Positions 50,148 through 58,971 of a stretch of DNA of 64,000 nt are shown one piece after another. Origin of the DNA: Patescibacteria group bacterium (lineage in GTDB: Bacteria > Patescibacteriota > Gracilibacteria > Absconditabacterales > Absconditicoccaceae); the NCBI GenBank assembly GCA_022705745.1, contig JAKJDW010000003.1:1-64000 (forward strand), given 5' to 3'. A program made the position numbers and the translations under genes. Within the stretch, counting starts at the first letter, position 1. Every line of letters starts with the position of its first letter. The notes under the pieces are model-generated. The model did not search any database. It saw nothing but the letters and a program-made list of their open reading frames with translations, and was not told the DNA's origin.

Positions 50148-50256
50148 GTTATTTTCGTTTTTGATTGATATGTAATTTAATATGTGTATTATTACATTGA
50201 CTGGTAGCCTCCCCGAGTTTCTAAAAATATATCTTTTAGACCATTTTGGCATTGTT

Positions 50257-51039
50257 ATGAATAAAATAATTAGAGAATTAAAAGATTTATACTTGTGAGG
50301 TAACAAAATAAAATCTTATTCTGCGGAAACTATTAATGTTTTGGCGCATAAAGATAGGGTTGGATTCTTTGTCCTTAATCAGAAAAATGATAATAAATAT
50401 ATTTTATATATTTACTGAAATATTAAAAAAAACGATATAATATCCATTAAACAACTTTTTTCGAAAAAAATGTGATATATCTCAGTTACAGTTGTGGACA
50501 TTAGCGGTAAATATGTAAGGATAAAATCTAATAAAAAGTTGGATATAGATGATTTTTTGATGTATATACCTAATTTTTATATAAAAAATTGATGGTTGTT
50601 TTGACCTTATTTGGACAATCTTTTATCGATCTTGATATTAAATAAAATAAATTGTAAATTTAATTTATGGCAATCTATCGATGAAGAAGCTAAACTAATT
50701 TATTCTAGTTTCCCGAAAAAGTGAACAACAATAGTGCTTGATGTTTTACGGCAAGAATATTTAAAAGAAAAAATAAATTTAAATAAAATATATTGTATCA
50801 GATCTACATCTTTTACTAGTAAATTATCTACGATAGTTTGAAAAGACATTGAGGATATTGATTTAAATTTAAAATTTAAATTGGAAGTAGATTGTTTTGA
50901 TTGTAAGGCAAAATATTTTTTATTATGTCCAATTGTTAATTGACATTCTGCTATTGCTTCTGTTAAATTATCTACATTGGATAAGTTTGAAAAAACATTA
51001 AATTTATTGTTTAATAAAATAAAATGAAAAAAAATTTAA
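50257..51039 (+). CDS. Hypothetical protein paired with a guanylate-kinase-like gene
   Basis: 260 aa, not recognised. N-terminal MNKIIRELKDLYLGGNKIKS; mostly beta/alpha sequence with YIYGNIKKNDIISI, GWLFGPYLDNLLSI and a C-terminal CFDCKAKYFLLCPIVNG. No transmembrane segment. The last 16 nt overlap the start of the next gene, which implies translational coupling and joint function. Confidence 0.7.
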
Positions 51040-51683
51040 TTGTATGAGCAAATTCTAAAATATTGAAAAATATAGAAGTAGCTTATAAAAAATATCTGGA
51101 TTGAAAATTGGATTTTCAGAAAATAGTAGGGAAAATAAAGTTTTCTAATTTAATCGTAATTTCTGGAATAAATTGTGTATGAAAAAGTACTTTTATAGAA
51201 AAAAATAAATTGCCATTTTTGATGACATATAAAACAGGAAATAATATTAAAATTCAAGAGAAACAAATTATAATTGATGAGGAAAGGTTTTATAAAAAAA
51301 TGATCAATTGAGAATTTTTTCATGTTTATGCAGTAAATTGAAATTATTACTGATATTCAATTGAGGATTATTGTATTCTTTGTAAAGAATATGGAAGTGT
51401 TTTCATAGAAGTTTCAATTGAAAGTATATATTTATGATTAAGATATATTCCTAAAAAAATATTTATTTTGGATTATTCTGAAGAGCAAATAAATAAAGAT
51501 ATAGTAAAAAGAATACCAGAAAAAAAGTGTTCCAAAGAAAGGATAAAATTATTGAAAAAAATAATAGAAAAAGAAAAGAGATTTTTAGAAAAAATAAACG
51601 AAGGAAGTGATTTTATTTATTTAAAAACACCGTTAGAAAGTAAAAAACAAATAAGTTTTATTGATTCAAATAAAAGTGAATAA
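51024..51683 (+). CDS. Divergent guanylate-kinase-like P-loop protein
   Basis: 219 aa. P-loop ISGINCVGKSTF at about residues 47-58 (the Gly before Lys is TGA), then FYKKMINGEFFHVYAVNGNYYGYS, which parallels the guanylate kinase GMP-binding stretch (G-x-F-x-E...HGNxYGT), and FIEVSIESI in place of the usual VLDIDVQG. The basic C-terminus is long and lacks the standard lid. The acidic GMP ligand Glu is His/Tyr here, so substrate may differ. Overlaps the upstream gene by 16 nt. Confidence 0.72.
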
Positions 51684-51736: not shown

Positions 51737-52000
51737 TTACCAAATCATTGGTCAAGCTCGGTGTGGAGTATGCCAAAGTTCTCCATCTGCCTCTATGTTG
51801 TCTGTACATGGCTTCCAAATAATTCTCGGATTATCTGTATCTTCTCATCATATGCACATACAACAAGGGTTTGGCCTCTTTTTACTCCTAAAATCACATT
51901 TACATTGTACAGGGACAATACCATTGTACTTTTCTTTAATAGTTCAGCGGAGCTTTCAACATTTCTTACACTTGGTAAGATTTTTTTTTAGAATAATCAT
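51737..52000 (-). CDS. Small Cys-rich protein under a SAM riboswitch
   Basis: 87 aa, not recognised. Cysteines in CKKCGK, CKCDF and CCMC clusters, separated by basic residues (FRSKKRPNP), suggest one or two zinc ribbons. The C-terminus has IIWKPCTDNIEADGELWHTP. ATG at 52000 starts 20 nt beyond the riboswitch terminator; TAA at 51737-51739. Gly residues at TGA occur near the Cys clusters. Regulation by SAM suggests a part in methionine, SAM or methylation metabolism. Confidence 0.75.
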
Positions 52001-52019
52001 AATATTTAGAATAGAAAAT

Positions 52020-52051
52020 AAAAAACTTTTCTATCCTAAGACGAAAAGTTT
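52020..52051 (-). terminator. SAM riboswitch expression-platform terminator
   Basis: On the minus strand AAACTTTTC, an 11-nt loop and GAAAAGTTTTTTA form an intrinsic hairpin. The loop sequence CTTAGG can instead pair with CCTAAG in the 3' part of the riboswitch, giving an antiterminator. Confidence 0.8.
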
Positions 52052-52060
52052 GTGGGTTTT

Positions 52061-52157
52061 ACATCTTTCCTCTTAGGGCTGGATTTAGCACCTTGCAATA
52101 ATGCAGGTTGCTGAGATGGTTGTAACGAGCCAGTGCTCTTCCATCTTCTCTTGATGT
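52061..52157 (-). promoter_or_regulatory. SAM-I (S-box) riboswitch
   Basis: Minus-strand sequence matches the S-box consensus in order: ATCAAGAGAAG, then GCACTGGCTCG, CAGCAACCTGC, GCAAGGTGCTAAATCCAGC and CTAAGAGG, with P1 formed by ACATC and GATGT. Binding of SAM should stabilise P1 and allow the downstream terminator to form, turning off the small Cys-rich gene. Confidence 0.9.
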
Positions 52158-52226
52158 ATTTTCAAGATATTGATTTTTTTCTAAAAATCAACAAAATTTT
52201 CAATTATGTTTTTTTATTATTTTTTT

Positions 52227-52660
52227 TGGAGATGGCGAGAATCGAACTCGCGTCTAAAAGACATAAATAATAGCGTCTACCACAATAGTTTGTTTATTAA
52301 GCCGTGAATTTTATGTCTTTACAATTGGCAAATTCAAAAGCCAACAAACAGGCAATGGATTTTTTATTGTACAGACATTTGTTTACCTACTTGTGTCTCC
52401 GTCTACCTAGTAGGTGTCTGGTAGAACCGGTTGATACGATCGTATGCCGATGTTATAACCGGCATTGTTCTTACATCCATCTTGCGATGGTGATTGAACA
52501 AAAAACTAGGCGTAGTTTAATACGAAAGCGTTAGCTCTTGCTAACAAATTTTTTGAGTTTGCATTTTTAGATGCTAAGCGATTATTTTAGACTCGGTACG
52601 CTCATCGAGTAGTGGCAACTATTAGATATGAGAATCTTTTATCGAAACCTGTACATCCCC
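52227..52660 (-). ncRNA. ssrA: tmRNA (SsrA)
   Basis: The 5' end GGGGATGTACAGG pairs with the 3' end CATCTCC plus discriminator A. The T arm reads GCGAGTTCGATTCTCGC, standard for tmRNA. A tag ORF at 52506-52562 reads ANSKNLLARANAFVLNYA then TAG. Stem sequences of later pseudoknots (GCCGGTTATAACATCGGC) are visible. CCA is not encoded. It rescues stalled ribosomes and tags products for proteolysis. Confidence 0.92.
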
Positions 52661-55950: not shown

Positions 55951-56093
55951 AATCTACTTGTGGCTAAATCCCCCCTCCCCCCCTTAAGAAAGGGGGGCTG
56001 TATGGACTTTTTACTCAAAAACACCTCTGAAATTTGCAAAAAAAATAAAATCATATATAATTGAATGTACTTTATATATTACAAAAACAAAAA

Positions 56094-57014
56094 ATGATTA
56101 AATTTGATAGGGTTGTATCTCAGGTAGCGGATGATATTCGTACCATTACGATACAATGAGCTACCAATATCGCTAGAGAGGCTTGTAAAGTAATGGAAAA
56201 ACAGTTGCGCTTAAAACCTTTTTCTAGTAAAAAAGAATTAAAAGATTTTTTTGATAAATCTTCTCGTCGTTTAATTGAAGCTAGAGAAACAGAACCAATG
56301 CTTCGTAATGGGATGAAATATGCAAGGTATAGATTAGCGCATTGAGCTGACGCTATTCAGCTGGCAGATGCTTTTGCTGAATATATTACTTGGATAAATG
56401 AAGAAGAAACGATTAGAGCTAAAATATGAGTAGATTTGATTGATGATTGAGATAATATTGTGACTCATTGTCATTCAGGTTCTGTTACAAAAATACTAAA
56501 AACAGCACGAAATGAATGAAAAAAAATTCATGTTTACAATACAGAAACTAGACCATTATATCAATGAAGAAAGACTTCTACGAAATTAGTTGAAGCTGGT
56601 GTTCCAAATACAATGGTAACAGATAGTTTAGCACCATTTTTTGTGGATAATATTTATGAAAAAGATATTGAAATAAACAAGGTCTTTTTGTGAGCAGATT
56701 CTATCCAGTCTAATGGAGACACTATAAATAAAGTTTGAAGTTTTGCTATTGCTTTATCGGCTTGGCATTCAGGTATCCCATTATATGTTGTTTGAAGTTT
56801 ATTGAAACTTGATATTTTGGGTGAAATTTGAATTGAGACTAGAGATGGTAAAGAACTTCGATCGGATGCTCCAGAAGGTTTGAAGATTTTGAACTATGCT
56901 TTTGATATGATTCCTGCTAAATGTATTACAGGGATTATTACTGAGTTTTGAATAATTAGACCAGAAAATTTACTTAAAGAAGTGAAAAAAAGATATCCTT
57001 GGATGTTGGAGTAA
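56094..57014 (+). CDS. Ribose-1,5-bisphosphate isomerase
   Basis: 306 aa of the eIF2B-related isomerase family (archaeal e2b2). Converts R15P to ribulose-1,5-bisphosphate. The active-site Cys126 lies in HCHSGSVTK and Asp202 in [10 protein letters not shown], at the positions known from the archaeal enzyme. TDSLAPFF and [19 protein letters not shown] agree. TGA encodes several Gly. Methylthioribose-1-P isomerase is less likely, given the RuBisCO and AMP phosphorylase neighbours. First gene of the AMP-RuBisCO cluster. Confidence 0.92.
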
Positions 57015-57032
57015 GTTCGCTCCGCTCACGAT

Positions 57033-57200
57033 AAAATGATAAAATGTTGAAATGATAAAATGATAAAATGATAAAATGTTGAAACTTGTCCCGCTTAGCG
57101 GGATGAATGATAAAATGTTGAAATGATAAAATGATAAAATGATAAAATGTTGAAACTTGTCCCGCTTAGCGGGATGAATGATAAAATGTTGAAATGATAA
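57033..57200. repeat. Tandem ATGATAAA units with 71-bp higher-order repeat
   Basis: Runs of ATGATAAA separated by GTTGAA. A 71-bp higher-order unit ending ACTTGTCCCGCTTAGCGGGA occurs twice (CTTGTCCC at 57085 and 57156). The CCCGCTTAGCGGG forms a hairpin. Related short version at 34.2 kb. Confidence 0.85.
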
Positions 57201-57210
57201 ATTAAATTAA

Positions 57211-57332
57211 AAAGTTCTTCCCTTGGGGGAAGTTGTTCTAATGTAGTTGGGGGTGGTTGGAAGTAAAACCCCCACCTATCCCCGCAGTACTGCGGGGGAG
57301 AACAACCTCCCCAAGGGGAGGAACTTTCCCCA
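57211..57332. repeat. Family A palindromic element (reverse orientation)
   Basis: TTCTTCCCTTGGGGGAAG, GTAGTTGGGGGTGG, ACCCCCACC, CCCCGCAGTACTGCGGGG and CCTCCCCAAGGGGAGG in the reverse order to the copy at 46.0 kb. The frame of the next gene stays open through it, but start homology supports 57415. Confidence 0.85.
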
Positions 57333-57414
57333 CAAAATTCTTCCTTTCACCCCGAAAATCGGAGTTTGGAAAGTTGAAGGGGGCTATGAACTTTACAAAC
57401 TTATTATTATAAGA

Positions 57415-58971
57415 ATGAAAAATAAAACCTTTTCTTTGAAAGCACAACTAATAAATGTTACAACTGGAAATGATTTTCAGATTTGGTTAAATGAATCGCA
57501 GGCTTTTAAGTTTGGTATTACAGCAGTAGATAATGTAATTTTATCTTATGAAAAAGATGGCAAACATAAGAGATTATCTGTAAATGTTGATTTGACTAAT
57601 GATTTTTTGGAGTCTTGAGAGGTTTGAATCACCCAAGATATTTTTGAAAAACATGATATAAAAACTTGAGACATAGTTTCTATTTCTACAATTACTAAAA
57701 ATCCACTATCATTGCAAGCTATAAGGAAAAAACTTTTTGGAAAAAAACTAAATAAAAATGAAATTAAAGCATTAATGAGAGATATGACAGATGGGAAAAT
57801 TAGTGATTTACTTGTGGCTTATTATGCGGCTTGTAGTTTTGCTTATTCTAGTGACAAAGAGGAACTTTATTGGACAGCAAAGTATTCTGCTGAAATGTGA
57901 GATATGATTAAATTTAAGTATGATACTGCTGTAAAATATTCTATTGGTTGAGTACCTGGGAATGAAACAACTATGATTATTGTGCCTATTTTGGGTTCCC
58001 TTGGTATGTCTAGTCCAAAAACTTTTTCTAGAGCTATAACTTCTCCTGCTGCAACTTGAGAGTGTGTAGAAGTGCTGATGGATACCGAATTTTCGGTCAG
58101 TGAAATGAAAAAATTGGTTACTAAAAATTTATCTTGTTTGGCTAATGGAGAATTTTTGAAATTTGCTCCAGCAAATGATAAGATAATAAAAGTTTCATAC
58201 CCATTGTATATGGAAGCATATTCCAAGGTAGCAATTAGTATTATGGCAAAAATTTATGCCTGATGAACGAAGTTTTGTTTAATAGATTTGCCTGTTGGTA
58301 AAAATTGAAAAATAAAAGATCAAAAAACTGCAGATAGAATTGCTGGTCATTTCAAATATATTTGAGAAAAACTTGGGATGAAAGTTTATGTGGAAATATC
58401 TGATGCGAATCATCCTGTGGGTAAGGGGATATGAGCAGTTTTGCAAACAAGAGAAGTTCTCAGAATCCTTCAAAATAAAAAATGTATTTCAAAAGATATC
58501 AAAGAGAAATCAATTAAGTTATCCGCTGATTTGATTCGTCTTGTTTGATTGGCTAAATGAAAAAAAGCTATTGAATTGGCTACAAAACAATTGGAATCTG
58601 GAGCTGCTTGGGAATATATGAAAAAATTAATTACAGCACAAAATCGTATTCGCAATAGGAAACCTGATTATAAAAAAGTTTCTTATCTGGGAATAGTAGA
58701 TTCAGAAGATTTGCCTTTGGCAAAATTTTCAGAAAAAATAATAGCAAAAAAAGCTTGAAAAATAAAATCACTCAATGTTCAGTTAATAAAAGATATAGCT
58801 AGATTGTTTTGAGCACCGTTTGATAAACAAGCTTGAATTTATTTTTATAAACAACATTGAAATTTGGTGAAAAAGTGAGATGTTTTGTGTGAATTGTATT
58901 CAAACAATCAAGAGGATCTTCAAAGATGATTGGAAGCTATAAAAAAAGAGAAACTTTTCTTTTATTGCTAG
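57415..58971 (+). CDS. Divergent AMP phosphorylase-like paralogue (copy 1)
   Basis: 518 aa nucleoside phosphorylase of the thymidine phosphorylase/AMPpase family with the N-terminal AMPpase extension. It retains YSIGGVPGNETT (175-186) and [12 protein letters not shown] (205-216). However, the segment aligned to CLVWGGGLDLAPADD of copy 2 reads [15 protein letters not shown] (241-255), and the GPTAK loop reads GKNGK. Key sugar- or phosphate-binding positions therefore differ, so substrate or activity may have changed. The start at 57415 is chosen by homology; the frame is open upstream to 57247 through a repeat. Upstream of RuBisCO. Confidence 0.85.

Follow-up and report, generated by a model that had tools for sequence, protein, structure and literature searches.

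Our analysis of a 64,000-nt stretch of DNA (hereafter the window) revealed a SAM-I riboswitch directly upstream of an orphan gene for an 87-aa, Cys-rich protein, and a small family of probable relatives whose genes are likewise preceded by SAM-I aptamers. We consider it likely that the leader is an OFF switch acting by attenuation and that the protein is a divergent member of an accessory zinc-ribbon family, induced at low SAM, rather than a biosynthetic enzyme for methionine or SAM. Both the controlled gene and its recurrence behind SAM-I appear undescribed in the literature searched, and the association looks like a recurring link and not a one-off. Riboswitch-controlled genes in Gracilibacteria were not found described in the searchable literature, where only passing mentions occur. 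The observation concerns an undescribed small protein family in very small genomes, with a changed genetic code in the lineage of the window, and links this family to a defined signal, low SAM.

The SAM-I Aptamer and Its Expression Platform

Judging from its sequence and structure, the window riboswitch is an ordinary member of the known class SAM-I, and SAM binding is predicted. A consensus S-box had been proposed by the sequence-only reading, and the Infernal search with the Rfam SAM model agreed with it. RF00162 was matched over the full model (1-108) with 44.9 bits and an E-value of 5.2e-7 over the whole window, a marginal score, as it exceeds the gathering score of 44.4 bits by just 0.5 bit. 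All parts of the core were found intact in the cmscan alignment (P1-P4, the AAGAG junction and the GCAACC...GGUGC element), with P1 formed by 52158-52153 and 52065-52060. In addition, CUGG in the P2 loop (52133-52130) can pair with CCAG in J3/4 (52082-52079), giving the pseudoknot. For the 161-nt leader the folding energy is -42.6 kcal/mol, compared with -26.8 +/- 3.5 kcal/mol for shuffled sequences, none of which (0 of 200) was as good. The features of the locus are collected in Table 1.

Table 1. Features of the riboswitch locus (window positions)
Feature	Position	Strand	Evidence or remark
tmRNA gene, directly upstream of the riboswitch	52224..52660	-	cmscan RF00023, 83.8 bits
SAM-I (S-box) riboswitch aptamer	52058..52160	-	cmscan RF00162; fold z -4.5; pseudoknot from sequence
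Antiterminator hairpin, excludes P1	52035..52077	-	fold; in whole-leader MFE
AU-rich intrinsic-terminator-like hairpin, runs into T tract	52018..52051	-	fold, -7.6 kcal/mol
87-aa Cys-rich putative zinc-ribbon protein	51737..52000	-	code 25, 5 TGA=Gly codons

Two alternative hairpins were found in the expression platform. The antiterminator takes up the 3' strand of P1 together with the terminator's 5' arm, pairs CCTAAG (52077-52072) with CTTAGG (52040-52035) and reaches -13.2 kcal/mol alone. It is present in the whole-leader MFE structure and absent when P1 is enforced, so the two are mutually exclusive; with P1 enforced the leader folds at -40.7 instead of -42.6 kcal/mol, a cost of 1.9 kcal/mol before the ligand is counted. 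The earlier suggestion that terminator and antiterminator share the CTTAGG/CCTAAG pairing thus holds in the folds (52077-52035 versus 52051-52018). A G+C-based terminator scan does not list the terminator hairpin, the stem of which is AU-rich.

Premature termination by a SAM-I OFF switch is the best-supported mechanism, for which we infer SAM binding and the direction of control. With SAM bound, P1 would form, the antiterminator would be blocked and transcription would end at the terminator before the gene; at low SAM, the antiterminator would form and the 87-aa protein would be made. When P1 is forced, a 13-bp hairpin is also seen at 52008-52040 (minus strand), which overlaps the terminator, ends about 8 nt from the start codon and might additionally mask the translation start.

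The 87-aa ORF and Its Genetic Code

The ORF begins shortly past the terminator, in a layout like that of the metK copy L002, and depends on the reading of TGA as Gly, a point on which the sequence-only reading was silent. The genome uses table 25 (Gracilibacteria type, TGA=Gly), which gives a long-ORF coverage of 0.81, compared with 0.05 for table 11. A standard-code reading of the ORF is broken by the five TGA codons and was rejected, code 25 being suited to the whole window. Two of these five codons, G15 and G19, fall at Gly columns that are conserved in the relatives described below. By the standards of the genome the ORF scores poorly in codon usage, ranking in the lowest 2.6% of gene segments, a level reached by 6% of off-frame segments. 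Such usage is compatible with a gene that is short, Cys-rich or acquired, and alone it is no proof of coding.

The protein had been described as an orphan placed alone behind a SAM-I platform, and the searches concur. No match was found in Pfam, NCBIfam, PHROGs or PDB, nor in phages, plasmids, viral contigs, genome contigs or 85,000 species genomes, and according to the family libraries the product belongs to no known family of Met/Cys/SAM metabolism or transport.

A Putative Zinc-Ribbon Family Recurring Behind SAM-I Aptamers

Comparison of the window protein with 353 genomes of the class returned weak matches only, most of which were dismissed as noise. One of them, a protein of genome G350, aligned over the N-terminal half carrying CxxC and CxC. 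Strong relatives of the full G350 protein were found in G292 and G294, and G311 and G263 were added when a profile was built from the three proteins. The five clear members belong to other families of the class and share the pattern CxxC, CxC, CxxC, followed by Gly and His. When 85,000 species genomes were scanned with the pattern, five members came up, including Gracilibacteria and Peregrinibacteria, which proved to be the same five proteins. In 207 class genomes the improved profile added nothing to the family, and the family profile had no match in viral contigs; a viral match of the G350 protein was rejected as a chance frame. Pfam matches of the G350 relative were all below threshold. The G292 copy has no in-frame ATG and may be decaying.

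By sequence alone, the window protein is only weakly similar to the five. Eleven columns are invariant across the six sequences, window protein included (L8, C11, K13, C14, G19, C33, C35, C46, C49, G73 and H80), the third Cys pair of the window protein being C46..C49. Against the first profile it scored above every one of 4000 shuffles, in half of which the Cys positions were kept in place. In a set of 10,424 ORFs it obtained an E-value of 0.003 with the five-member profile, and an E-value of 0.11, ranking 9th, with a four-member profile lacking the member found through it.

The upstream regions, which had no part in the search that found the family, served as a test. A SAM-I aptamer was found directly 5' of all five relatives, as it is of the window gene. 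Scores were 57.2 bits in G350, 56.3 in G294 and 51.6 in G263, while the aptamers of G311 (28.4 bits) and G292 (22.4 bits) are degenerate with a recognisable core. None of eight decoy loci, which scored weakly with the same profile, carried a SAM-I aptamer. Taking the sequence and the shared control together, we regard the window protein as probably homologous to the five.

The earlier guess of a zinc ribbon gains strength from these probable relatives, in which the three Cys pairs and the upstream aptamer recur together. The window protein resembles zinc-ribbon small proteins as a general fold class in having CxxC...CxC...CxxC pairs within about 90-110 aa. It differs from them in matching no Pfam, NCBIfam, PHROGs or PDB family and in the additional conserved Gly and His, with a DG..WH(V/T)P-like stretch in most family members. 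By analogy with zinc ribbons in general, the ordinary expectation would be a metal-binding adaptor or a nucleic-acid-binding protein. The 87-aa protein would bind zinc and serve as an accessory zinc-ribbon protein made only under low SAM.

The leaders raise a different possibility, namely that a functional riboswitch precedes an 87-aa ORF with no relation to the five, a lineage-specific orphan or a recently acquired Cys-rich gene that came to lie behind a local, duplicated SAM-I leader. In G294, G350 and G263 the leaders share 64-80% mutual identity, as if they had travelled with the gene. The nearest counterparts of the window leader are leaders of code-25 lineages, its own metK leader included (0.68), and not those of the five relatives, and a local origin would also agree with the atypical codon use and with the weakness of the matches in the 353 class genomes. 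However, the Cys, Gly and His columns and their order are common to the window protein and the five, and the genes of the weakly similar G350 protein and of each of its relatives proved to lie behind SAM-I aptamers, to which the search was blind, whereas the decoy loci did not. We therefore consider an unrelated ORF rather unlikely. If the homology holds, the leader was replaced or recoded locally with SAM-I control kept, or the control was regained.

SAM-I Switches Across the Class and Restriction-Modification Genes

Among the 353 class genomes, 121 of 146 SAM-I places (the weak one of G292 included) precede metK. The other SAM-I switch of the window genome is one of this kind, which makes the orphan a further target, distinct from metK. 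Compared with SAM-I (RF00162) at metK, the window switch has the same aptamer fold, core, pseudoknot and antiterminator/terminator platform, but its gene encodes an orphan small protein and not a known methionine, cysteine or SAM function. Within the 25 non-metK switches, the six zinc-ribbon genes form the largest identified group. One further switch precedes ahcY (G058), one lies upstream of metK behind another ORF (G034) and the G302 switch stands at the end of a contig. Most of the remaining ones precede small orphans, and blastp revealed no mutual relation among the orphan proteins behind the other non-metK switches. The ahcY (adenosylhomocysteinase) switch is L067 (G058:C55:25954-26059). 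At L145 (G316:C2:293406-294439), two near-identical SAM-I leaders are separated by about 930 bp; a 141-aa orphan ORF follows the second at least, and a KAP-like NTPase and a PIN-domain-like gene adjoin.

The surroundings of the non-metK switches were also compared with respect to restriction-modification (R-M) genes, counted as N6_Mtase, N6_N4_Mtase and DNA_methylase matches in 80 genomes. An R-M methyltransferase was found within 5 kb of 6/25 non-metK and 2/64 metK switches (p 0.0055), about 2% being expected. After correction of two classifications the counts were 6/23 versus 2/65 (p 0.0035), and with the zinc-ribbon R-M loci left out 4/21 versus 2/65 (p 0.03). The test is post hoc, the idea having come from part of the same data, and the enrichment is a lead, not proof. 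The systems are of type I in G292 and G311 (both zinc-ribbon loci), type III in G010 and G055, type IIG-like in G053 and Dcm-Vsr in G086; in the metK control flanks a single HsdM-like match was seen. Furthermore, the zinc-ribbon locus of G294 adjoins a Panacea antitoxin. Two of the orphan loci may be described individually. In the one-contig code-25 genome G010, the second SAM-I switch (L222, G010:C1:100000-119900) stands before a 136-aa orphan and after type III Mod/Res-like genes. At L221 (G086:C37:26000-45900), Vsr-like, Dcm-like and putative restriction genes are followed on the same strand by a SAM-I switch and a 139-aa orphan.

These surroundings could suggest that the locus belongs to a response to SAM depletion tied to R-M or phage defence, in which low SAM would induce a small effector, or else a factor that protects the cell from self-restriction. 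The enrichment, which includes the zinc-ribbon loci of G292 and G311, and the antitoxin beside the G294 copy are consistent with such a role. It has also been proposed in a review that metabolite depletion by the T3 SAMase is a conceivable invasion signal for defence systems yet to be identified, cofactor depletion being a possible trigger (PMC12707154). The present case resembles that proposal in that low SAM would be the signal and some relatives of the window locus lie beside R-M genes; it differs in that the sensor would be an RNA switch and that no R-M gene neighbours the window copy, while the T3 SAMase sensing itself is a review proposal only. Against a defence role, the test was devised after some of the loci had been seen and loses strength without the two zinc-ribbon loci, and such islands collect accessory genes of any kind. 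Moreover, no R-M methyltransferase was found within 5 kb of the window copy or anywhere on its contig (C33), where the neighbours are metabolic. For the window gene, we thus hold a defence function to be improbable.

More broadly, one may speculate that SAM-I switches of Gracilibacteria have been recruited as alarms, turning on small accessory proteins, the zinc-ribbon family among them, when SAM is drained; we regard this, too, as improbable. SAM would be drained by starvation or by a phage enzyme that destroys SAM and evades restriction, and the induced proteins would attack the invader or shield the cell from its own restriction enzymes. Searches of the literature for SAM riboswitches with R-M and phage, or for riboswitch, anti-phage defense and S-adenosylmethionine, found no papers. 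The locus also opens to test the idea that RNA switches for the cofactor of R-M systems can act as alarms beside these systems.

Genomic Neighbourhood of the Window Copy

Returning to the reading that we prefer, an accessory zinc-ribbon protein under a SAM-I OFF switch, the gene lies among metabolic genes (pyruvate formate lyase, an epimerase, a P-type ATPase and nucleotide-salvage-like genes). The tmRNA gene is a frequent integration site. In the same-genus genome G001, the tmRNA adjoins the same P-type ATPase gene and other genes occupy the riboswitch side; no ORF of the 87-aa type was found in G001. A decayed locus, with an untranslated ORF and a leader left behind by a methionine-related gene since lost, would agree with this absence, the marginal bit score and the poor codon score, but it is very unlikely given the intact aptamer, pseudoknot and both alternative hairpins and a 97-codon open frame with the conserved Cys/Gly pattern and a start-codon spacing as at metK.

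At 50182-51683 (plus strand), orphan ORFs of 285 and 219 aa overlap each other; they have no Pfam match and are convergent with the riboswitch gene, and the second carries a P-loop-like GINCVGKST motif. Finally, an IF-2B-like gene (possible ribose-1,5-bisphosphate isomerase) was found beside an AMP/pyrimidine phosphorylase-like gene at 56061-58971 (plus strand), a pairing that resembles the archaeal-type AMP pathway.
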